IMG/VR virus record: IMGVR_UViG_3300032893_000182 | Location: 1 to 36,446 of that record | Strand: one strand, 5' to 3' | Length of the DNA stretch: 36,446 nucleotides | From: a virus | Shown: positions 4,376-36,446 of the stretch, in pieces | How positions within the stretch are numbered: position 1 is the stretch's first letter | Layout of the letters: the number at the start of each line of letters is the position of its first letter | Position numbers and translations under genes: made by a program | The notes under the pieces: generated by a model | Seen by the model: only the letters and a program-made list of their open reading frames with translations | What the model was told of the DNA's origin: nothing | Database searches by the model: none

Positions 4376-5884
4376 ATGATTAGCAAAGAAAATCTTCGTT
4401 GGGAACTCCCACGTTATACTCGCGGCACTGGTATCGAAATCAGTACTGCTCCAACAAAAGCATATCCGCATTTCATCTCTGTATCTGAACAAGATAAGCA
4501 GATCGAAGGCCATTCAATTCCACCTGATGTTCGTGTAAAACAAATTCAAACATTGGATCTGTTTTCAAGTCTTTCCCTTGACTTTATCGTAACCAACCGT
4601 ATGTCTGAAGTGGTAGACTATTTCATTACTTTGACCGATTACTGGGCAAAGCTGAAGAATGGCGGTCATCTGGTATTGTTGCTCCCAGAAGCTGAAGATC
4701 TACAAACAGTCGTAGAACTCAATCTCAAGAAGTTGAAGAACTCTCATGTTGTTTGTGATAAGCAATTTGGTGACGAAGAATCAGTAATTCGTTTGTTGGT
4801 ACTGAAGAAGCAAAAGCAATTGACCACTAAGTTGAAGAACGAAAAGCCAACAGCATTCCTTTGCCGTCTTGGTGCATATGGTGACAACATGCAAGCCGCT
4901 TCTGTTGCATATGGTTTGAAGCAACAAGGATACCATGTTACCTATATGGGTAGCCCTCCTGGTATTGATGTACTTTTGTTCGATCCAAATATCGATGAGT
5001 TTTACATCACAGATAAGGATCAAATTCCCAACCATAACCTGGTTGAGTTCTGGAATTACCAAAAGAGCCAACATGATAAATTTGTTAACTTGTCTGAATC
5101 AGTTGAAGGAACATTCCTTGCATTGCCAGGTCGAACACCTCACGAATGGTCACCAGTTATTCGTGAAAAGTTTATGAACTATAACTATCTTCAATTCGCT
5201 CATGAACTGGCTGGCGTCCCACATGATCCACAAGTGCATTTCTATCCAACTAATGAAGAAAAGCAATGGGCTTATCAACAACGTCAAAAGATGGGCAAGA
5301 ACGTGATTATGTGGTCTCTGAGTGGTAGTTCAGTACATAAGACATGGAATGGTGATCATGCCCGCGGATTTGACCAAACTCTCGCACGAATTCTAACCTA
5401 CTACAAAGATGTAGATGTGGTATTGGTTGGTGGTCCTGAAACAATCATGTTGACTGAAGGATGGGATAAGGAACCACGCGTTCATATCCATTGCGGTGAT
5501 TGGACAATTCGCCAAACACTCACATTTATTGATTACGTCGAAATGTTGGTCGGTCCTGAAACTGGTGTATTGAATGCCGCTTGCTGCTCATCTGTTGATA
5601 AGATCGTTTTCTTATCACATTCAACAGAAGAAAACCTGACACGTGATTGGAAGAATACACAAGCATTATCAGCCAGCAATGTAACATGCCCAGGACGTGG
5701 TAATAACGAAGCCAAAGCTTGCCATCAATTGCATTATGGATGGAAGCACTGCAAGCAAAACACCGATACAGGTACTGCTGAATGCCAGAGCAAGATCACG
5801 GTAGAAATGGTATGGGATGCAATCAAGAACGTAATGGATAAGAAAGCAAAACGAGCAATGTTTGATATGGCGGTGGCAAAATGA
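4376..5884 (+). CDS. Degenerate methyltransferase fused to GT9 heptosyltransferase-like domain
   Basis: A 502-residue two-domain protein. Residues about 7-145 have the shape of a class I methyltransferase: an entry region GTGIEISTAPTKAYPHFI (17-34) and the late strand LKNGGHLVLLLPEA (93-106). However, the glycine-rich SAM loop expected after GIEI is replaced by STAP, so SAM binding is doubtful. From about 158 a GT-B glycosyltransferase of family GT9 begins with FLCRLGAYGD (161-170). It ends with the donor-binding signature VGPETGVLNAA (392-402). GT9 enzymes transfer heptose from ADP-heptose to LPS. The next gene overlaps by four bases and encodes a heptose-phosphate kinase, which fits a shared sugar pathway. 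Acceptor (host LPS, phage protein or DNA) is unknown. Confidence 0.82.
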   Translation: MISKENLRWELPRYTRGTGIEISTAPTKAYPHFISVSEQDKQIEGHSIPPDVRVKQIQTLDLFSSLSLDFIVTNRMSEVVDYFITLTDYWAKLKNGGHLVLLLPEAEDLQTVVELNLKKLKNSHVVCDKQFGDEESVIRLLVLKKQKQLTTKLKNEKPTAFLCRLGAYGDNMQAASVAYGLKQQGYHVTYMGSPPGIDVLLFDPNIDEFYITDKDQIPNHNLVEFWNYQKSQHDKFVNLSESVEGTFLALPGRTPHEWSPVIREKFMNYNYLQFAHELAGVPHDPQVHFYPTNEEKQWAYQQRQKMGKNVIMWSLSGSSVHKTWNGDHARGFDQTLARILTYYKDVDVVLVGGPETIMLTEGWDKEPRVHIHCGDWTIRQTLTFIDYVEMLVGPETGVLNAACCSSVDKIVFLSHSTEENLTRDWKNTQALSASNVTCPGRGNNEAKACHQLHYGWKHCKQNTDTGTAECQSKITVEMVWDAIKNVMDKKAKRAMFDMAVAK

Positions 5885-6777
5885 ATAGAGTAATGGTAGT
5901 TGGAGACGCAATGCTGGACCGATACTACTTCGGTTCAGTAACCAGAATTTCACCAGAAGCACCAATTCCAATTGTGAAAGTTAATCGTGTGGAAGACCGC
6001 CTCGGTGGGGCGGCAAATGTAGCAAATAACCTGGCACATTTGACCGCCGTAACATCACTCATGAGTATTACTGGTGTCGATGAACCTGGTCTGGCCTTGG
6101 CTAATAAACTTCGTGAATATGATATTGCACCATTCATCAGTAAAGATCCATACGGAACAACCACATTGAAGCTTCGTACTGTGGTTGGTGGTCATCAAGT
6201 AAGCAGAACAGACTTTGATTCAAAGCCATCAACCACAACTAAACTTGCTCTATTGGATCAATTTGAACGACTGTATCAAACTTATGATGTGGTAGTCTTT
6301 TCTGATTACAACAAAGGAACACTTGGTTATACTGAACGAATGATTGCTTTGTGTAATGAAGCTAATATCAAGACAATCGTTGATCCAAAGGGTAATGATT
6401 GGTCCAAGTATAAAGGTTGCTTCATGATTACGCCAAACGAGAAAGAACTTCAGGATGTTATTGGTACTTGGGATAGCGAAGCAGAACTGACTAGAAACGT
6501 CACCAAGCTGATGGCTGACTTAGGTATTGCACAGGTACTGCTGACACGATCCGAACGTGGCATGACGCTGTTTAATCAGTTCCAGACGCATTATAAGACT
6601 GAAGCTAAGTCTGTTGTTGATGTTACTGGTGCAGGTGATACGGTTGTTGCGACATTAGCTTGGGCATTAGCTAATAACTATTCACTCAATAAATCTATTG
6701 AATTGGCAAATAAAGCAGCTGGTATTGTCGTATCAAAACTTGGTACTTCGGTGGTATCTCATGATGAACTGCTATAA
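5881..6777 (+). CDS. hldE-like: D-glycero-beta-D-manno-heptose-7-phosphate kinase (HldE/RfaE kinase domain)
   Basis: This 298-residue PfkB-family kinase phosphorylates heptose-7-phosphate at C1 in ADP-heptose synthesis. Signatures are complete: GDAMLDRYYFG (8-18) with ISPEAPIPIV (23-32), GGAANVANNL (42-51), SDYNKG (141-146), VDPKG (167-171), TPNEKEL (184-190), and the anion-hole and catalytic DVTGAGDT (247-254) with D253 as base. The C-terminal nucleotidyltransferase half of bacterial HldE is absent, so a host enzyme must add ADP. The ATG overlaps the stop of the glycosyltransferase (ATGA), giving strong coupling. The pair probably raises or redirects heptose flux during infection. Family assignment is near certain; substrate in the phage context is inferred. 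Confidence 0.9.
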   Translation: MNRVMVVGDAMLDRYYFGSVTRISPEAPIPIVKVNRVEDRLGGAANVANNLAHLTAVTSLMSITGVDEPGLALANKLREYDIAPFISKDPYGTTTLKLRTVVGGHQVSRTDFDSKPSTTTKLALLDQFERLYQTYDVVVFSDYNKGTLGYTERMIALCNEANIKTIVDPKGNDWSKYKGCFMITPNEKELQDVIGTWDSEAELTRNVTKLMADLGIAQVLLTRSERGMTLFNQFQTHYKTEAKSVVDVTGAGDTVVATLAWALANNYSLNKSIELANKAAGIVVSKLGTSVVSHDELL

Positions 6778-13618: not shown

Positions 13619-13630
13619 ATGGTGTTTTTT

Positions 13631-13798
13631 ATGAAAAAATATATTATCGAATTTACTCAGGAAGAAATGGTTGTTATCAACGATGCATTGGTGCAAATGC
13701 CTTATTTTAAGGCGGCACCTTTAATTGCGAACATTAATAACCAGATTAAGAATCCTTTGTATAGTGAATCAGACGAAGAAACTGATATCCAAACTTAA
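13631..13798 (+). CDS. Small hypothetical protein (55 residues)
   Basis: Begins MKKYIIEFTQEEMVVINDAL, then QMPYFKAAPLIANINNQIKN, and ends acidic (ESDEETDIQT). The pattern of an ExxV.I..AL.Q.P helix followed by a second helix is typical of short phage proteins of unknown role that occur in many genomes. Only a weak GGTG binding site precedes the ATG, so translation may be low or coupled to the fibre gene 12 bases upstream. The stop overlaps the AATAAATA box. Too short for many gene finders. Confidence 0.65.
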   Translation: MKKYIIEFTQEEMVVINDALVQMPYFKAAPLIANINNQIKNPLYSESDEETDIQT

Positions 13799-13804
13799 TA
13801 AATA
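13797..13804 (+). promoter_or_regulatory. TAAATA-box promoter for the head-gene operon
   Basis: AATAAATA followed by TGGTGAACAATT, 43 bases before the ATG at 13847. It overlaps the left edge of the perfect palindrome at 13801-13828, so RNAs started here lack most of its left arm. Confidence 0.55.
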
Positions 13805-13828
13805 TGGTGAACAATTGTTCACCATATT
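13801..13828. repeat. Perfect 28-base palindrome
   Basis: AATATGGTGAACAA joined to its exact reverse complement. In read-through RNA it would form a 14 bp helix. There is no T-run, so it is not a standard terminator; an RNA processing site or a protein operator is possible. It shares GGTGA with other TAAATA-linked hairpins. Confidence 0.75.
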
Positions 13829-13846
13829 AATAAGGAATATTTTATC

Positions 13847-14230
13847 ATGAGCGACATTATTATTTCGCAATCATTTCAAGACGCAGACGACCTGAAGCTG
13901 GCACAAGAAGTTGGCGATCTGCTCTACAAGTCATACCCAGGTTGGTTGTGGGCAGTAGAGATTCGTGATCACGGTCCATTAATTCGTTTGCTTGATGCAC
14001 CAATCCAAGGTATGTGTTGGTACATTAATCCAAAGGATATCAATGCACATTCTCCAGAATGGTTTACTAAACAGATCATGATGGGTGGTGGTGAGTTCTT
14101 GGAACGATGCGGTGCTAAACGTGGTAAGAAAACAGAAAGTGACCAGATTGACGTGGTTGAGGGTGTAGAAGCGAAGCTTTATACCGATCCATGGGCAAAG
14201 ATGAAGGCTATTAAACAAGGTAAAGCGTAA
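13847..14230 (+). CDS. Hypothetical protein upstream of portal (127 residues)
   Basis: Begins MSDIIISQSFQDADDLKLAQ. It contains SYPGWLWAVEIRDHGPLIRLLDAPIQG, shown here only to mark a strand-rich domain at about 30-57, and ends TDPWAKMKAIKQGKA. Trp and aromatic residues cluster in the first half. A short basic KRGKK segment lies near residue 92. It overlaps the portal start by one base (TAATG). Genes in this position are common before the portal in this phage type and may assist capsid or portal assembly. No family name can be given with confidence. Confidence 0.68.
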   Translation: MSDIIISQSFQDADDLKLAQEVGDLLYKSYPGWLWAVEIRDHGPLIRLLDAPIQGMCWYINPKDINAHSPEWFTKQIMMGGGEFLERCGAKRGKKTESDQIDVVEGVEAKLYTDPWAKMKAIKQGKA

Positions 14231-25605: not shown

Positions 25606-27585
25606 TTAGTTTATTACTAACCAAAAATAAACCGTTGTAGCTGTTGAACTAGTGGTTTTGGGATTAGCAAATTGAATCTTTATTTCTCTATTGTTAGTCC
25701 CATCATTAGATTCTGCCCACATTAGAAGTCCTTGTGTAGCAAGAGAGCCATCAAAAGGTTCTAGACTTACTTGCTTTATCGAACCTACTGATATCAATTG
25801 ATGGTAAGCATAAAAATATGAACTACCAGATCCAGCAGTTAAGATAGGAACAGCAGCTGAACAAAAAACACGTTTAGAATACTGTGCTCCACCAACACCA
25901 CCATTATAATTACTTTCCCCTTCTGTTGTAGAAACTGGAATTGGTGATGTATTAACTGCATCTGAATAACGCATAGTGATTTTATTGTATGCGCCTGCAT
26001 CACGAATACGAATGGTATCACCAGCAGTTGGAATTGGACTAGCACCTGGTTTACCACCACCATACGCCATTACTGGACCAATTTCAAATTCACAGAATTG
26101 ACCATTCCAGTAACCTAGTGTTGCATTACCATCAGTTAATGCACCATTAGAAGTTGCGGTTCCTGCAAGAAACGGATTTATCAATGTGGTTGGTGTACCA
26201 CTTGTGCTATCAGCAGCATATCCTGATGACGCCCAATTAACTGTAAACTTACAAGTATCACAAGTATTATTGATGTTATAACCATAGATCGTTGAACCAT
26301 CAACTTCATTAGTAAATGATTGTCCAGTAATATGGAATTGACTTGCCACCAGATTCTGGTTTGAACCATCAATATAAATTGGATATTTTGCCCAAACAGT
26401 ATTGGCAGTAAAAACCAAAGCAGCAATATCTAATGAACCAGCAGTAGCGGTATAAGTCGCAATACCATAAACACAGAAGTCGATAGTGTTAACATTGATA
26501 TTAATATTATCAACACTGACGGTTGGTGTAGCACCAACCTGGATAGCTGCATTCCAACCAGATGCGTAAAGCAGATTAATGTTCAATCGATTACCACCAT
26601 TCAATTGAATAGCATTACCTACACGACTAGCTAGATTATAGGTGTATGATGATGGTCCATAACCAGGAATGGAGAAAGAGCTGTTAATAGCTGGACTATA
26701 AAGCTGTGGAAAGTTCATTGTCGCTAGAGCAGCGGTTGAACTAACGAAATTCAGTAAAATTCCGCAACTTGAACTATTATTCCATCGCATTGTGGCAGTG
26801 TCAGCACTATCGATATCGAAAGGACTTGTTATAGTAATCTGTGAGCCAAAAAGATAGTTACCTTCTGGAATATACATTTTCATTCCAGTCGATTCGCAAT
26901 ATGCGATTGCTGCTTGGAATGCTGGTGCATCATCAGTAACATTATCACCAACAGCACCAAATCTTGGATCCTTAACGTTTACGAAATAGGCAAATTGTCC
27001 AGGAATAGAAGCATTGGTGGAAGTCAAAAGACTGACTAATACAGCCGATAAACCAGAATCCAATTGACCACTATCCCATACAACAGTAACCGTTGTCAAT
27101 GTGGTAAAGACAGATGATGCAATAGTACCGTAAATCGTGCCAGCACCAACAACCGCTTGAATACGACGTTGTGAAGTAAATGTACCAGTTTGATTACCAG
27201 AGATAGTAAACTGTGTTGCACTGATATATGTCAAAGTACCAGCAATAGCCAACCATTCACTGGAAGAACCTGAAGATGCTGATGTGTCATTAATACCAGC
27301 AATGTTATCCCAAGTACCTGGTGTAACAGTTACGTTATTGGATGTTTCAATGACAAACTTATAAGTTTGTCCGCCTTGCAACCAGATTTCATTAGGTGCG
27401 CGACCTGATGAATTCAATACAATTGGGTTTGGATTGGCGGTAAGACCAGTAGAATCGGTGAATGTTGCTTGTGGTGTTGTTGTACCAGCCTCATAGGTGT
27501 AAAGCAATCCACCAGCCAATACCACACCTTGATCAGTAAAGAACTGTTCACTGGCTCCACCGATTGGTGAAAGAAATACGCTCAT
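25606..27585 (-). CDS. Tailspike with head-binding domain and polysaccharide-lyase beta-helix
   Basis: A 659-residue spike. Residues 1-95 (FLSPIGGASEQFFTDQGVVL, GGLLYTYEAGTTTPQATFTD, NSSGRAPNEIWLQGGQTYKF) match the common podovirus tailspike attachment domain. A strand-rich linker covers about 105-190. At about 200-250, KDPRFGAVGDNVTDDAPAF, then MYIPEGNYLFG, start a pectate-lyase-3 beta-helix, expected to cleave capsule or O-antigen. The C-terminus (about 570-659) may be a trimer cap. It is on the minus strand, opposed to the rest of the virion genes, and overlaps the upstream ATP-grasp stop by four bases, so both come from one promoter near 28959. Its stop abuts the fibre gene stop. Confidence 0.85.
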   Translation of the reverse strand: MSVFLSPIGGASEQFFTDQGVVLAGGLLYTYEAGTTTPQATFTDSTGLTANPNPIVLNSSGRAPNEIWLQGGQTYKFVIETSNNVTVTPGTWDNIAGINDTSASSGSSSEWLAIAGTLTYISATQFTISGNQTGTFTSQRRIQAVVGAGTIYGTIASSVFTTLTTVTVVWDSGQLDSGLSAVLVSLLTSTNASIPGQFAYFVNVKDPRFGAVGDNVTDDAPAFQAAIAYCESTGMKMYIPEGNYLFGSQITITSPFDIDSADTATMRWNNSSSCGILLNFVSSTAALATMNFPQLYSPAINSSFSIPGYGPSSYTYNLASRVGNAIQLNGGNRLNINLLYASGWNAAIQVGATPTVSVDNININVNTIDFCVYGIATYTATAGSLDIAALVFTANTVWAKYPIYIDGSNQNLVASQFHITGQSFTNEVDGSTIYGYNINNTCDTCKFTVNWASSGYAADSTSGTPTTLINPFLAGTATSNGALTDGNATLGYWNGQFCEFEIGPVMAYGGGKPGASPIPTAGDTIRIRDAGAYNKITMRYSDAVNTSPIPVSTTEGESNYNGGVGGAQYSKRVFCSAAVPILTAGSGSSYFYAYHQLISVGSIKQVSLEPFDGSLATQGLLMWAESNDGTNNREIKIQFANPKTTSSTATTVYFWLVIN

Positions 27586-28922
27586 TTTTTATCCTTGTTT
27601 TTATCACCCAATACCCATTCGGAAGCAAAGCCCATTTGTTGGAGATCAGGCAGTTTCTTAATTACACGATTACCAATATCAGTTCTGTACATCATTGAAC
27701 TAACATTGATCTTATCGATTGTTTTATAAACACGTTCTTGTGCTTGTTCTACTGTGTTACCAAGTGCATTGACTACGGCAAAATATGTTCCACAGGTCAT
27801 CCAGTTATTCTTCATTTTGATATTACCATCAATGTTATGTGGATAAGAACCCATCATCATTGATTGTGGAATAACATGTTTCTTTACATTTTCGTTATCC
27901 ATAAAGAATGGCTTCTCTACTTCAGCCCATGTCTTGTTCTTACTTGGAAATGGTGGCTGTGTTAGAACAACACCGATAGCAGTATCATAACTAACTTTCA
28001 ATGAATCAATTCCCTTCTGGGCATCAATCATCCATTGAATAGGATCACCTTGATGTTGGGTTAATTGAATATTAAATTGTGGCCAACCCCAACGAGCGGT
28101 GAATTCCAAAGGCCATACTTTACCTTTTTCATCAATGATACAATTCACATCCACATTGCCTTGGTGACCCAACTTAACTAGATCAGATTCCATTGGACGC
28201 AATGCTTCGTTAAACAACTTACTTTGTGCCACGTATTTCTGAACTGTACCTTGTTCACCAGTACCAGGACCGATGTCATCATTCATTAATGGTTTGTGTT
28301 CGAATGATTCGAGAGCAGGACCAATAAATCCGTCAGATCCAATTGACTTGGCAACTGCGAATTCAATACCAGGTATGAACTCTTGTAGCATTACTGGCTG
28401 GTTGTTTTTCATTCCTTGTTTTTGCCAACGCTGTAGCGTACTAATCATATCTTCTGGGGATTTAGCACAATAAGTCAATGCTTTATCTTCAACATCACCA
28501 AGTGGTTTAAACACATATCGTTTGTCATTCTTCCATTGATGCATTTCAGCTTCTTTCAATGAATTAAATGACACATATGGTGGACATTCGATACCGCGAC
28601 TTTCTAGAAATTTCATCCCCAGCGCACGATCAACTTCAAGTTTGGATGAAGCAACAGATGGGCCAAAATATGGAACTCCAGCTTTCTTTAAAACATCCAA
28701 TTTTGGTAAAAACTTCATAATGTCAGAGATCAATACTAGATCTGCCCATTTAACAGCAGCTACCCAGTTATCAATCTTTTCGATATTAGGAAAACCTTTA
28801 AGCAGATTTGGATTTGTATAACCTGGAGCAATAAAAATCTTCACTTTATGACCAAACAAAGTAGATTTATATGCGAGCCCTGTAAACGCCCCATCAGACA
28901 GGTCGATCAGCAATAGGTTCAT
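27582..28922 (-). CDS. PurD-like ATP-grasp ligase (446 residues)
   Basis: An ATP-grasp enzyme with the layout of phosphoribosylamine-glycine ligase. There is a Rossmann-like N-domain (1-100). An ATP-binding core follows with RYVFKPLGD (135-143, K139), VMLQEFIPGIEFAVA (177-191) and DDIGPGTGEQGT (215-226, where PurD has GPNTGGMG). Then comes LEFTARWGWPQ (272-282, where PurD has EFNxRFGDPE) and a C-domain to 446. The Asn of the metal-binding EFN and the GDP motif are changed, so the substrate is probably not phosphoribosylamine. It would join a carboxylate to an amine using ATP. It is co-transcribed with the tailspike, suggesting a link to surface polysaccharide or to modification of a virion or host molecule. 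Confidence 0.82.
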   Translation of the reverse strand: MNLLLIDLSDGAFTGLAYKSTLFGHKVKIFIAPGYTNPNLLKGFPNIEKIDNWVAAVKWADLVLISDIMKFLPKLDVLKKAGVPYFGPSVASSKLEVDRALGMKFLESRGIECPPYVSFNSLKEAEMHQWKNDKRYVFKPLGDVEDKALTYCAKSPEDMISTLQRWQKQGMKNNQPVMLQEFIPGIEFAVAKSIGSDGFIGPALESFEHKPLMNDDIGPGTGEQGTVQKYVAQSKLFNEALRPMESDLVKLGHQGNVDVNCIIDEKGKVWPLEFTARWGWPQFNIQLTQHQGDPIQWMIDAQKGIDSLKVSYDTAIGVVLTQPPFPSKNKTWAEVEKPFFMDNENVKKHVIPQSMMMGSYPHNIDGNIKMKNNWMTCGTYFAVVNALGNTVEQAQERVYKTIDKINVSSMMYRTDIGNRVIKKLPDLQQMGFASEWVLGDKNKDKK

Positions 28923-29009: not shown

Positions 29010-29585
29010 ATGAAAAATTTTATGCCAATCGGAAAAGTTGATGTTCAACCATTGATTGATGCTTTGAATCAATATCCAGAACTTTGGAATCTAAACACAT
29101 TGCGTACAACTCACGATCAGAGTCCACATACTCAAGTTCAAGATATTTGGATTCGTTTTAATGAGATCGCTGAAGATTCAACACGTCAATCACTGCTTGA
29201 TGATAAAGAATCAATTTGGTATGGTTCTGCAAGTGTCTTACCAGTACGTGAATACATCTATCGTTTAGCTCATGACGTATTTGCAGATCGTATTGGTCGT
29301 ATCATCATCACAAAGATGGCACCTGGTACTAAGATTGATCCACATGTAGACATGGGTGGTCCAGCAACTTATTACCAACGTTTCCATATTGCAATTCAAA
29401 GCAAAGATGGACAAGTGTTCAAATGTGGTGATGAGGCATTTACGCCTGAAACTGGTGATGTATATGCGGTTAATAACTCACTTGAACATAGCGTAGAAAA
29501 TAATAGTGATGTTGATCGTTTAACAATGATTATTGATCTTCGTACGCCATTCCTCGAAGAACTCAAGAAGACAATCGAGGAATAA
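29010..29585 (+). CDS. Aspartyl/asparaginyl beta-hydroxylase-like 2OG-Fe(II) dioxygenase
   Basis: A 191-residue protein with the cupin-type iron centre of the AspH family: H112 and D114 in IDPHVDMG, and the distal H160 in NSLEHSVENN. 2-oxoglutarate contacts are expected from R124 (YYQRFHIAI) and R170 (DVDRLTMIIDL). The order and spacing agree with bacterial AspH-like enzymes that hydroxylate Asp or Asn side chains. There is no transmembrane segment, so it is cytoplasmic. Tail-end TPETGDVYAVNNS precedes the last His as usual. Its phage target is unknown. It is first in a unit with a GNAT protein and ejection proteins, so a virion protein is one candidate. Confidence 0.85.
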   Translation: MKNFMPIGKVDVQPLIDALNQYPELWNLNTLRTTHDQSPHTQVQDIWIRFNEIAEDSTRQSLLDDKESIWYGSASVLPVREYIYRLAHDVFADRIGRIIITKMAPGTKIDPHVDMGGPATYYQRFHIAIQSKDGQVFKCGDEAFTPETGDVYAVNNSLEHSVENNSDVDRLTMIIDLRTPFLEELKKTIEE

Positions 29586-32359: not shown

Positions 32360-34333
32360 ATGGCAAAAAGTTGGAATGACGTAGCACAATCTGATCAGTT
32401 TCAATCTCTAAGTCCAGAACAACAAACTGCGGCTAGAGATCAATACTTCAATCAGGTTGTTGCTCCAAAAGTGCCCAAAGAGCACTTGGATGATGCCAAG
32501 TCACAGTTTGATGAAGCTAGTTCTAAGTCACTGAAAGAACCAGGTATGTTGGCTGCTGCCGGCCGTGCTGTAAAAGGTGCGGCTGAAGGAGCCGCCCATG
32601 TAATTGGTTCTACTCTTGCTTCTGGTATTGAAGCTGAAGCTGGTCCAAGTAGTATGGGTGCGCAAATCAGCAAAGCCACTCACTTGACTACACCAGAACA
32701 AGAAAAGACTATTGAATCCAAGTTGCAATCGGCAGAAGGTAAGCTTGCATATAAACCAAAGACTGAAGTTGGTAAGGATATTGCTAACATTACTGATTTA
32801 CCTGGTAAGGTAGCACATTCTATTGGTGAATACGTAACCAATAAAACTGGTAGTAAGGACTTAGGCACTCGTGCTGAAGCTGCTGCTAATCTTGGTATGA
32901 TGTTTGCTGGTCCAAAGGGCGCAAAAGTTGCTGCTGATTCAGTGGTCGCTGGTGTAAATCATATCAATGACATTGCAGATGCCGCTATTGAAAAACATGG
33001 TCCAAATGGTTTAGCCGATATTTTTGAAAAGATGAGCGAAGCTCCAGCAAACCAGAAAGGTCCAGCTGGTGCCAAGATGAAAGCGGCTGCTGATAAGTTG
33101 CGTACTATGACTCCTGATGAAGCACGCAGCCAGATCAATAATGGTAATTCAGCAGTTCATCAGGCTATTTCTGCAATGCGAGCACAAGCTGGTAATGCCA
33201 CTCGTTCAACTAAAGCTAATTTGGTTGAAACATTGGAAAGCTTTTATAACATTACACCAGGTCAAGGTGCTGGCGCTATTGCTAAAGCAGTTGGTAAAGT
33301 ACCTTATGACGTGGCTAAAGCTGGTGTAGGTGGTGCTGTATCAGGTGCGGTATCAGGTGCTAAAACAGGTTCTGGTCATATCTTGGCCAAGTCTATGATT
33401 GACAAAGCATTTCCTGATCTATCAGATACCCAAAAGACTGCTGCTACCGTTGTTGTTCAAGGAGCACTTGGTCATTTGGTTCCAGCAGTTGGATCAGCAG
33501 AATTAGTTGGTGGTGCAATTGGTGCGGTATGGCAAGGTGTTAAACAAGCTGCTGCTCAATTACCAAAGAGTGTTGAAAAAGCTAAGACTGATATTAAATC
33601 TTCAGTTAATAAAGTGGCAGTTGGTAAGTTGTTAGAAGGGCAACCACGCAAAGCTCAACCAACTTTAAAGGATGCTATTGAACAACATTTAGCATCTCAA
33701 AACGCACCAGGAGCCTCACCAAGCGTCTCCCAGAAGCCGCAAGTACCACAGCAAGCTCAACAGCCACAAGCTGGTGGAAGACCGGAAAATGTCGTAGATA
33801 TGAACGATTCAAATCTATTGAAGAATACATTCATGTACAACATGGGTGATATTTCTAAAAAAACTGGTCCACATGCTGAAGTGATTCCATTCAAGGGTAA
33901 AGAATCTACTGCTGATAAAATACCTGGAACCAATGCTACAAAGATGCACTTGGAAGAGAACGTAGATGGTGGTTACACTGCCAAATTTGCTGGTGACAAT
34001 AAGGCAATGATTATGTTCAAACCTGAAGGGAAGGGCGTTAATGTATCTGATGTGTTCAGAGGAAATCAAGCCAAGGGTACTGCTGGTGATATGGTGTCTC
34101 GTGCTTTAAAGGCATCTGGTAATGAAACACCAGAGCATATCAAAATCTCTACGATTTCAGATACTCAACCGACATTAAAGCAACTTGATGAAGGTGTAAA
34201 GCCACAAGACACTATTCTTGGTAAGACTATTGTAAAAGCAGTGAACAATTTAGGTGGTAAGATCACTGGTTGGGAACTTGGTAAAGACAAAAAAGATAAA
34301 CCTTTCCTGAAAGCTACCATTTCTTACGATTAA
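32360..34333 (+). CDS. Large internal virion / DNA ejection protein (657 residues)
   Basis: The N-terminus (AKSWNDVAQSDQFQSLSPEQ, then REQYF-like RDQYFNQVVAPKVPKEH) matches starts of P22 gp16-type ejection proteins. The middle has several Ala/Gly-rich amphipathic stretches (KGAAEGAAHVIGSTLASGIE, AGVGGAVSGAVSGAKTG, VPAVGSAELVGGAIGAVWQG) that could insert in membrane. From about 505 a separate soluble domain runs to the end (MHLEENVDGGYTAKFAGDNK, IMFKPEGKGVNVSDVFRGNQ, DMVSRALKASGNETPEHIKI), whose family I do not recognise. No peptidoglycan hydrolase motif is visible. Its stop overlaps the stop of the convergent 55-residue gene by four bases. Confidence 0.72.
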   Translation: MAKSWNDVAQSDQFQSLSPEQQTAARDQYFNQVVAPKVPKEHLDDAKSQFDEASSKSLKEPGMLAAAGRAVKGAAEGAAHVIGSTLASGIEAEAGPSSMGAQISKATHLTTPEQEKTIESKLQSAEGKLAYKPKTEVGKDIANITDLPGKVAHSIGEYVTNKTGSKDLGTRAEAAANLGMMFAGPKGAKVAADSVVAGVNHINDIADAAIEKHGPNGLADIFEKMSEAPANQKGPAGAKMKAAADKLRTMTPDEARSQINNGNSAVHQAISAMRAQAGNATRSTKANLVETLESFYNITPGQGAGAIAKAVGKVPYDVAKAGVGGAVSGAVSGAKTGSGHILAKSMIDKAFPDLSDTQKTAATVVVQGALGHLVPAVGSAELVGGAIGAVWQGVKQAAAQLPKSVEKAKTDIKSSVNKVAVGKLLEGQPRKAQPTLKDAIEQHLASQNAPGASPSVSQKPQVPQQAQQPQAGGRPENVVDMNDSNLLKNTFMYNMGDISKKTGPHAEVIPFKGKESTADKIPGTNATKMHLEENVDGGYTAKFAGDNKAMIMFKPEGKGVNVSDVFRGNQAKGTAGDMVSRALKASGNETPEHIKISTISDTQPTLKQLDEGVKPQDTILGKTIVKAVNNLGGKITGWELGKDKKDKPFLKATISYD

Positions 34334-34497
34334 TTGTTACGCAGGTACTCCATCAAGCGACGATTGAAGTCTTCCAATTCACGTTGTTTCTCGAGTGCTT
34401 CTTGTTCTGCACGCTTCTTATCATCTTCTTTCGATTGCTTGAAGAAGTTGTACATAAGCATACCAAGAACTACAGCAAAGAAAATAGCATCAAACAT
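34330..34497 (-). CDS. Small single-pass membrane protein (55 residues)
   Basis: Sequence begins MFDAIFFAVVLGMLMYNFF, a single transmembrane segment, then turns abruptly into a charged helix (KQSKEDDKKRAEQEALEKQR) and ends EYLRNN. The layout is that of a small anchor with a coiled-coil arm, like short holin or spanin-type proteins, but it is too small to assign. AGGAGA lies six bases before the ATG on the minus strand. It is antisense to apparent plus-strand open frames, which are shadows. Its stop overlaps the stop of the large ejection gene by four bases. Confidence 0.7.
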   Translation of the reverse strand: MFDAIFFAVVLGMLMYNFFKQSKEDDKKRAEQEALEKQRELEDFNRRLMEYLRNN

Positions 34498-34604
34498 GTT
34501 TGTTCTCCTGGGTTAATTGATGTCTTATGGTACACTCGTTTTGCTCTGGTGTGTGAAGTTTTTACCACCTTAACTTGAATCAGCACTTTTGTCAGTAGAA
34601 ACAA

Positions 34605-34632
34605 AAAACCCACTAGGTTAGTAGTGGGTTTT
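34605..34632. terminator. Bidirectional intrinsic terminator at the left edge of the non-coding region
   Basis: AAAACCCACTA (34605-34615), loop GGTTAG, TAGTGGGTTTT (34622-34632). It insulates the small minus-strand gene from the structured region in both directions. Confidence 0.9.
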
Positions 34633-34639
34633 CTATTAG

Positions 34640-35180
34640 AGAGATTCAACTTAAACTGATAAGACTAAAACGAAGTGAGGACATTGCATCCTCAATATCT
34701 ATTTATCAAGTTGAAAAGTGGCATCGCAACGGTCTCAATCATCAAAGACAAAACTGGTTAATTGCAAGCAAAATCGATCTGGGGAGAAAACAAGTAAGCA
34801 AACCCAGATGTACATATAACCAGAAAAAGCCGCGATATATTGCTATCTGGGTATTGCGAGCGAATGCGATGCAAGTACCCAGATATGAATGTATCAGTCG
34901 GCTCAGGTGCTACGCATGAGTTTACGAAGAAGTAGCCCTGAGTTAGCTGTACATGACATATCGCTTGTATTGCGGCATGACAACTCCAGAGCGACTCGTC
35001 AACTCGTCACTCAGGAGACAACACGTCGTATTACTACTGGCATTGTACTCGCAGATAGCACTTCTGAGTAACTATTGATACTTGCCATGCAGATAGACCA
35101 CTTCAGATACACCTTTGAGTACTTCGATGGTATGTGCTCGCACAATACCTGTAGTAATCCTTGTGTTGTATTTCGACCTA
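34640..35180 (+). ncRNA. Candidate large structured RNA (or structured replication region), about 540 nt
   Basis: No supportable gene lies here. Mutually compatible helices tile the region. 34645-34652 pairs with 34708-34715 and 34658-34662 with 34703-34707, capped by 34676-34681/34689-34694. 34754-34760 pairs with 34817-34823 around 34777-34783/34803-34809. 34832-34838 pairs with 34958-34964, enclosing a 10 bp hairpin (34844-34853/34876-34885, plus 34854-34857/34871-34874) and an 11 bp hairpin (34902-34913/34932-34942). 34984-34991 pairs with 35010-35017. 35030-35046 pairs with 35142-35158 (15 of 17). Unpaired plus-strand loops are A-rich, as in structured RNAs, and the CpG content appears raised. 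Large phage RNAs such as GOLLD and ROOL are possible relatives in size and setting; no sequence identity is claimed. An origin of replication is the main alternative. Confidence 0.5.
34700..34707 (-). promoter_or_regulatory. Possible minus-strand TAAATA box (GATAAATA)
   Basis: On the minus strand GATAAATA is followed by GATATTGAGGAT. It would read toward the 55-residue gene but the bidirectional terminator lies between, and the bases are also part of the proposed helix 34703-34707. Weak. Confidence 0.2.
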
Positions 35181-35187
35181 CTTCTTT

Positions 35188-35216
35188 TTGACTTACACCT
35201 GGTAATTTGTTCTACT
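35188..35216 (+). promoter_or_regulatory. Sigma-70-like promoter upstream of the helicase leader
   Basis: TTGACT (35188-35193), 17-base spacer, TCTACT (35211-35216): five and four matches to the consensus hexamers. It is one of the few intergenic sites with both elements at the right spacing and would let host polymerase transcribe the helicase early. Confidence 0.45.
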
Positions 35217-35234
35217 TGCGTACCAGAAAAAGAT

Positions 35235-35360
35235 GCAACGAAATTCCTCTTAAGATAGATAGAGGTCGTTGCGTGATTTTGTCACCGTTTGCTAAATAGA
35301 ATGGTGAGATAGTTCACAACAGGTCCTAGAGAAACCTGAATAGCAGTGCAATGCTGCTCT
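35235..35360 (+). promoter_or_regulatory. Hairpin-rich 5' leader of the helicase mRNA
   Basis: Successive hairpins: 35235-35241 with 35266-35272, continued by CCTCT/AGAGG (35246-35250/35261-35265); 35282-35286 with 35303-35307, or alternatively GTGA/TCAC at 35304-35317; CAGGT/ACCTG (35320-35324/35334-35338); AGCAG/CTGCT (35342-35346/35354-35358). The ATG follows at 35380. Confidence 0.5.
35291..35298 (+). promoter_or_regulatory. TAAATA-box promoter (GCTAAATA) in the helicase leader
   Basis: GCTAAATA followed by GAATGGTGAGAT, within the same TTTGCTAAATA as at 500-510. It lies 82 bases before the helicase ATG, downstream of the sigma-70-like promoter, so the gene may have tandem promoters of two types. 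Confidence 0.5.
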
Positions 35361-35379
35361 AACTTAAAAAGAGATTAAG

Positions 35380-36446
35380 ATGAAAATTCATTACGTCGAT
35401 GCCTTAGCAGGCTCAGGCAAAACAACAGCTGCAATCAAATACGCACTTCAACAAGCAGAATTAGGTGCAAAAATTGCTATCGTTCAGCCATCAACAGTTC
35501 TGATCGATCAAACACACAAAAACATCACCAAAAGCAATACCAAGAACATCCGTGTAACCAAGATCCATTCAGATTGCGTATCTGGTCAAGTCAAGGACAA
35601 AGTTCAAGATCATTTGCGTGAGTGCAACCAGAGTGTTGGTGAAATTCTACTTATTACCCACCAAACATACCTTTCCTTGCCATACTGGCATAATTCAACA
35701 AGCTGGGACATCATTATTGATGAAATCCCACAATGCCATACTAAGTGGGAAAATGATCTTCCAGTTAACCACGCTACTATCACAAGCTATGTAGAATTAG
35801 GTGAAAACGTTGATAACTATGCACTGATTAGCACAAAGCCAGGTAGCGAAGAAGAAATTCGTCGTGTGGCCGAATGCCGTTATAACGATGCACAAGATAA
35901 ACTGTGCCAAGATCTATGTGAAAAACTTAACAACTATACAACATGGGATACATACGCTCGTGTTGATTCATGGAATAAAGTTGTGAATGGCGAAGAAAAA
36001 GGTAAGCATTCATTGGTTGCATATTCATTACTTCGCCCATTATCTTTTGGCAAGTACAAATCAGTTACTATTATGGGTGCCATGTTTACAGAATCAGTTT
36101 TATACTTACTCTGGAAAGACCAGGTTACATTCGTTGAACATGCCGCTATTGCAAGTGGTTTAGTTACGCAAACCCATACTAATGGTAATCTGCTTACCAT
36201 TAAGTACATGTTCGAAAAAGATTGGTCAAAAACATTCCGTGATAGCAAGTATGACGGTGACACAATTCAATCAGCAGTTAAGGCGAAAATTGATGAATTG
36301 ATGGATGGTGAACAGTTTATCTATGCAGCAAATAACGACGATAAGATTGGTCTTGATCTTGGTTATCGTGTACCAAACATTTGCCATGGTTTGAATAAGT
36401 ATGAACGTATCCATAATGCTGTATTCATGAGTGCTATTAATAACAA
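35380..36446 (+). CDS. DEAD/DEAH-like superfamily 2 helicase, N-terminal part (continues at 1-476)
   Basis: This is the first part of a 471-residue protein interrupted only by the linearisation point. Walker A is AGSGKTT at residues 10-16, and a Walker B / DEAD-box variant, IIIDEIP, lies at 111-117. Motif Ia-like QPSTVLIDQ (36-44) and a THQTYLSLP stretch (93-101) follow the order expected in SF2 helicases. It is the only recognisable DNA-metabolism enzyme here besides the HNH proteins, so it probably unwinds DNA during replication or recombination. The start at 35380 was chosen because the Walker A motif follows within ten residues and AAAAAGAGAT upstream can act as a weak ribosome binding site. 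Its 5' leader is long and hairpin-rich. Family assignment is firm; the precise role is inferred. Confidence 0.85.
   Translation, partial: MKIHYVDALAGSGKTTAAIKYALQQAELGAKIAIVQPSTVLIDQTHKNITKSNTKNIRVTKIHSDCVSGQVKDKVQDHLRECNQSVGEILLITHQTYLSLPYWHNSTSWDIIIDEIPQCHTKWENDLPVNHATITSYVELGENVDNYALISTKPGSEEEIRRVAECRYNDAQDKLCQDLCEKLNNYTTWDTYARVDSWNKVVNGEEKGKHSLVAYSLLRPLSFGKYKSVTIMGAMFTESVLYLLWKDQVTFVEHAAIASGLVTQTHTNGNLLTIKYMFEKDWSKTFRDSKYDGDTIQSAVKAKIDELMDGEQFIYAANNDDKIGLDLGYRVPNICHGLNKYERIHNAVFMSAINN

Follow-up and report, generated by a model that had tools for sequence, protein, structure and literature searches.

A 740-nt ORF-less, highly structured region upstream of a helicase gene in a podovirus-like phage

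Genes and features around the gap

We analysed the 36,446-base virus contig IMGVR_UViG_3300032893_000182 over its full length (the window). The contig comes from a podovirus-like phage of an environmental sample and carries genes for the large terminase subunit, portal, capsid, a P22-type stabilisation protein, DNA-ejection proteins and tail fibres; its right end holds the first 355 codons of a DEAD/ResIII-type helicase gene (35380–36446, + strand), which is truncated where the record stops. The helicase belongs to the PHROG 2467 family (E 3e-40), matches Pfam DEAD (E 2e-8) and is 25–26% identical to T4-like and Atu_ph07 proteins, T4-like 55.2 being a distant relative. The phage also encodes metabolic or modifying proteins, namely a PfkB-type kinase, an ATP-grasp/GARS-like protein and an aspartyl/asparaginyl beta-hydroxylase (5881–6777, 27582–28922 on the − strand, and 29010–29585). 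Its capsid gene is 83–90% identical to the best 80 of 574 environmental contigs and its portal 38–61% identical to the best 80 of 198, and cultured Vibrio phages are only distant kin (portal 36%). The group of podovirus-like phages to which it belongs is abundant and little studied, as 574 contigs carry the same major capsid gene. The nearest relative found, L010, is an 18 kb contig with a terminase of 71% identity that stops short of the region matching the structured gap; it also encodes relatives of the ATP-grasp/GARS-like protein and of the aspartyl/asparaginyl beta-hydroxylase.

A gap of 740 nt (34640–35379) separates the late (DNA-ejection) genes from the helicase; it reaches from a terminator-like hairpin to the helicase start codon, and we infer that it is oriented on the + strand. 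To its left, on the − strand, lies a small gene (34330–34497) that overlaps the stop codon of the final ejection-type gene; its product has 55 residues, a single membrane helix by prediction and a charged tail. The gap is bounded on the left by a bidirectional, intrinsic-terminator-like hairpin (34605–34632; inverted repeat AAAACCCACTA/TAGTGGGTTTT). The − strand has the longer T run of the two (TTTTTTGTTT; TTTTCTATT on +), and the terminator region (34595–34645) folds at −15.4 on + and −19.2 on −. The hairpin is flanked by a 20-nt inverted repeat (80%; 34562–34581 and 34643–34662), and on the − strand no local structure in the genome is more significant than the segment 34561–34662 (z −7.0).

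The gap contains no recognisable gene, as an earlier note on this DNA had held for 34640–35180. Its longest open frame, 100 codons on the + strand (34617–34919), has no ATG, GTG or TTG start giving 60 amino acids; neither this frame nor the other longer ones matched a Pfam or PHROG family better than E 0.07, and tblastn of two + strand frames against phages returned no match. A decayed protein gene was dropped as an explanation, given that Pfam, PHROGs and the phage tblastn of the tested frames were all empty. No tandem repeat array is present beyond one 8-nt doublet, and the direct repeats are short, of two to three copies and of chance type, so that no direct-repeat array of the iteron type was found. 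The record of 36.4 kb contains no tRNA or tmRNA, although it ends 1.07 kb past the gap and a tRNA may lie farther on.

Folding excess and predicted domains

The whole gap folds better than its shuffled versions on both strands (z −5.83 on + and −5.41 on −), and none of 100 shuffles reached so low a value on either strand. For 34640–35180, the part of the gap in which the earlier note had proposed a structured element, the folding energy was −161 kcal/mol on + (z −4.56) and −169.2 on − (z −4.54) relative to 100 dinucleotide-preserving shuffles. Because coding sequence of the same genome also beats its shuffles somewhat (mean z −1.6 on +, −1.4 on −), the element was set against the rest of the genome, on a window grid that was anchored at the element and is thus slightly biased in its favour. 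The 541-nt element window ranked first of 65 genome-wide with both strands summed (z −7.1 on − and −5.4 on +, 20 shuffles), and 34800–34959 ranked first among 226 windows of 160 nt. The two best-folding of the 180 + strand windows of 200 nt were 35180–35379 and 34780–34979, in that order, and a local-structure scan placed 34829–34977 on + at the top of the genome (z −7.8). On the + strand the signal is carried mostly by the domain 34826–34980 (z −7.5) and by the segment 35180–35379 next to the helicase (z −4.7). Other stretches of the genome reach local z values of −5 to −6; the gap is more structured than any of them, and is a real and statistically exceptional feature. Strong local structure was also seen in the intergenic stretches 1992–2357 (z −6.3 on − at 2306–2416) and 13619–13846 (z −6.1 on + at 13784–13847).

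In the predicted fold, helices tile the gap from end to end. The leftmost, P1 (34645–34715), is a stacked 7+7 bp stem (34645–34651/34709–34715 and 34657–34663/34702–34708) enclosing a hairpin (34676–34681/34689–34694); it is weak on + (z −1.4) and better on − (z −3.0), and because 34643–34662 overlaps its 5′ strand, P1 and the outer 20-nt stem around the terminator are mutually exclusive. P2 (34754–34823; z −3.5 on +) is a 7 bp helix (34754–34760/34817–34823, pairing probability 0.98) with a 6–7 bp helix inside it (34777–34783/34803–34809). The P3–P5 domain (34829–34976; z −7.5 on +, −6.4 on −) is closed by P3, an 11 bp helix (34829–34839/34966–34976) with two G-U pairs on the + strand, and contains the hairpin P4 (34844–34858/34870–34885) and the 22 bp hairpin P5 (34889–34913/34932–34954), all three with pairing probabilities of 0.89–0.99. 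P6 (34984–35017; CTCC-a-GAG-c-GAC/GTC-a-CTC-a-GGAG), a hairpin with two 1×1 mismatches and a pairing probability of 0.99 (z −2.6 on +, −2.9 on −), directly adjoins P7 (35018–35169), a long-range helix of 8 bp (35018–35025/35162–35169) plus 17 bp (35028–35048/35140–35160) whose interior is poorly defined (z −1.8 on +, −3.8 on −). Among 100 shuffles, a 15-of-17 match of the P7 type, with its strands 50 nt or more apart, arose in one.

Every helix on which the earlier note had built its proposal is present in the sequence, in the repeat search and in the helix list with pairing probabilities: the 10+4 bp hairpin (34844–34857/34871–34885) in P4, the 11 bp bulged hairpin (34902–34913/34932–34942) in P5, the nested 7 bp helices as the two pairs of P1 and as P2 with the helix inside it, and the 15-of-17 helix with 95 enclosed bases (35030–35046/35142–35158) in P7. 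The proposed extent, 34640–35180, is indeed structured but too narrow, as structure continues to 35373 into the helicase leader. The note had also suggested a pseudoknot between GCATCGCA (34721–34728) and TGCGATGC (34865–34872). The two segments are complementary over 8 bp, but their pairing would break 2 bp of the inner stem of the hairpin, and the region holds nine 8 bp complementarities in all, helices included, against a mean of 2.6 in shuffles; the pseudoknot was set aside as no better than a chance short complementarity.

The last domain, D8 (35182–35373), is a closed multibranch domain that would form the helicase leader and has a folding excess mainly on + (z −4.7 from 200 shuffles and −5.1 from 30, compared with −2.2 and −2.4 on −). 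Its closing helix (35182–35195/35360–35373) has 13 bp and one mismatch, and its inner hairpins include 35235–35241/35266–35272 with 35246–35250/35261–35265. A Shine–Dalgarno-like AAGAGA (35369–35374) lies in the 3′ strand of the closing helix, and the predicted probability that its bases are unpaired is about 0.1 for RNA starts at 34640, 35018 and 35180 alike; an RNA starting at 35230, which would lack the 5′ half of that helix, is predicted to leave the site open. The helicase start region is unpaired at 0.35, compared with a mean of 0.50 over 24 other gene starts of the phage, 4 of which are predicted to be less accessible overall, so that burial of the helicase start alone is not exceptional. 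These predictions are suggestive of a ribosome-binding site held in a stable leader structure. With 5′ leaders that sequester the ribosome-binding site (riboswitches, thermosensors and autoregulated phage leaders) D8 shares a closed multibranch domain directly upstream of the start codon and Shine–Dalgarno bases within the closing helix; it differs from them in matching no known leader family in the Rfam search.

Known large RNAs and the search for relatives

An ORF-less stretch with structure beyond chance, as in large structured phage non-coding RNAs, is what we find in the gap, and the earlier note had likened the element to GOLLD and ROOL. That part of the comparison did not hold beyond size: a search of Rfam over the whole window gave no family at the gathering score, and in 34330–35420, where five models matched at up to E 5, neither GOLLD nor ROOL was among them. 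These five, with scores far below threshold, were eukaryotic miRNA or snoRNA models or short bacterial models. Membership of GOLLD, ROOL or another Rfam family was therefore rejected for want of a covariance-model match.

GOLLD RNAs lie frequently, though not universally, near tRNA genes, and have covarying helices, a conserved 3′ domain and the ability to self-assemble into a nanocage; ROOL is a very abundant transcript. To our knowledge, no function has been established for large phage RNAs such as these. Members of GOLLD are often longer than 800 nt, and ROOL is often found near tRNA islands (PMC12286853). The gap shares with GOLLD the size range, the phage setting, many predicted helices and a possible loop-to-strand complementarity, and with ROOL the size range and the phage setting; it differs from both in having no covariance-model match and no tRNA in the record, and from GOLLD in the 740 nt available to it.

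A precedent is offered by the Vibrio phage ICP1, in which the most abundant transcript by RNA-seq is an orphan non-coding RNA of about 800 nt from an ORF-less 1 kb gap (PMC7567579). We analysed this gp139–gp140 gap as a control. It too gave no Rfam match above threshold, and its folding excess was weaker (z −2.5 and −3.0); a missing Rfam match is thus no argument against an RNA. Both regions are orphan, ORF-less, of similar size and without a tRNA nearby, whereas the ICP1 gap differs in adjoining the lysis cluster and in having a transcript shown by RNA-seq. Neither blastn nor the models described below detected similarity between the two.

Searches for homologues of the element covered several collections. 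In 50,697 phage and 72,556 plasmid records, blastn found nothing beyond a short terminator-like match; this 85% match at the left end of the element covers the terminator stretch only and was discarded. Scans of viral contigs with the neighbouring genes (helicase, both ejection proteins, portal and capsid) yielded many relatives by portal and capsid, none of which carried this helicase or the element. In 68 of the records behind the portal and capsid relatives, DNA searches gave only short, chance-level matches, and helicase searches of the relatives' records gave none. Over 3.1 Mb of DNA, mostly from relatives, blastn with 7-base words returned no match and nhmmer no significant one. Single-sequence covariance models of 34826–34980 (R1) and 35181–35374 (R2) matched only the source window across the loci searched, and no relative emerged from viral contigs scanned with a DNA pattern for the helicase P-loop and with the back-translated frame of 100 codons. 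Most of the relatives' contigs are fragments that do not reach the site of the gap, so the element may be common to close relatives outside the collections.

Structured gaps in eight related contigs (L102, L131, L096, L118, L124, L111, L235 and L236) were considered as homologues and rejected, as they could not be aligned to the element; several appeared repeat-like by eye. Two of them, in L236 (3381–4161, 781 nt) and L235 (8358–8986, 629 nt), are ORF-less and fold strongly, contain long inverted repeats such as TGTAATGG...CCATTACA and adjoin a shared small gene; they are possibly origins. Related environmental phages also carry known RNAs, a Group I intron in L128 (9828–10064; Rfam RF00028, E 2.8e-20) and a Betaproteobacteria-1 RNA in L099 (10568–10691; RF02932, E 2e-14), the latter giving a hint of the host group.

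Strand and interpretation

The earlier note had derived a + strand RNA from A-rich loops. This argument fails: 45% of the bases predicted to be unpaired in the element are A, and across 11 control windows from this genome the share is 25–50%, with 7 of them reaching at least 41%, so coding controls are equally A-rich and we abandoned the criterion. Base-pair types do not tell the strands apart either, since the oppositions in or next to helices common to both strands comprise 6 G-T and 5 A-C. The domains disagree, P1 and P7 folding better on − and P3–P5 and the leader better on +. The G-U pairs on + in P3 and in the leader closing helix become A-C mismatches on −, and among the 200-nt windows the leader ranks first on + and 22nd on −. 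The one-sided excess of the leader, the presence of the strongest domain of the genome on + and the location in the gap of both best-folding + strand windows of 200 nt mildly favour the + strand, so that a + strand RNA is weakly favoured by the folding models. None of the promoter-like sites at either edge of the element scores well.

We consider it about an even call that the gap gives rise to a rightward transcript, either a structured helicase leader or a large RNA, with further structured domains upstream. According to this model, the 740 nt between the late genes and the helicase would be transcribed rightwards as a structured RNA, the last domain (35182–35373) would serve as the 5′ leader of the helicase messenger with the ribosome-binding site in its closing helix, and translation of the helicase would stay low until that domain was opened or processed. 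P1–P7 would then either extend this long leader on its 5′ side or be released from it by cleavage as a stable non-coding RNA. Transcription, the strand, processing and a regulatory effect on the helicase are what we infer here, and several observations speak against a rightward RNA: the roughly equal folding of the whole gap on both strands, the better folding of P1 and P7 and the better terminator T run on −, the lack of a homologue in the searches above and the lack of a well-scoring promoter-like site at the edges.

The same near-equality of the strands is what an element acting as DNA would give, for example an origin of replication, or another region bound by proteins where late and early genes meet, with inverted repeats that would form hairpins or cruciforms. 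The balance of G-U and A-C type pairs, the adjoining helicase gene and the long ORF-less stretches with long inverted repeats in L236 and L235 are in keeping with such an element, but the gap lacks iterons, its core has a GC content of 0.46–0.475, above the flanks rather than AT-rich, and its fold branches and contains bulges and unequal internal loops, with a leader that folds well on one strand only; the relatives' gaps, moreover, lie at other places and do not align with it. We regard a DNA-level role as possible and on the whole doubtful. A non-coding RNA transcribed leftwards from the − strand and ended by the terminator at 34632–34600 would account for the T run, for the − strand preference of P1, P7 and the terminator region and for the lower − strand z value of the 541-nt window; the most stable domain and the leader, which fold better on +, and the lack of a convincing − strand promoter to the right of the element make this quite unlikely. 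It is more improbable still that the structure is mimicked by leftover inverted repeats of a decayed gene or mobile element, or arose by chance. The unusually long open frame across the 5′ half, the lack of a homologue that could show selection and the local z values reached elsewhere in the genome would fit such a relic, but the tested frames matched no protein family or phage by tblastn and the excess structure ranks first in the genome at three window sizes.

Returning to the rightward transcript, the element is of a general kind already known, being a candidate large structured phage RNA or leader outside the GOLLD and ROOL families. A stronger version is tentative and in our view unlikely: the element would represent a new family of large multi-domain phage RNAs, about 740 nt long and with no sequence relationship to GOLLD or ROOL, physically linked to a helicase leader and controlling the ribosome-binding site there. 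If true, it would add a further unrelated large phage RNA, this one tied to a named gene and hence with a testable role, the control of an early helicase. Orphan structured regions that Rfam does not cover exist in abundant, little-studied podovirus-like phages.
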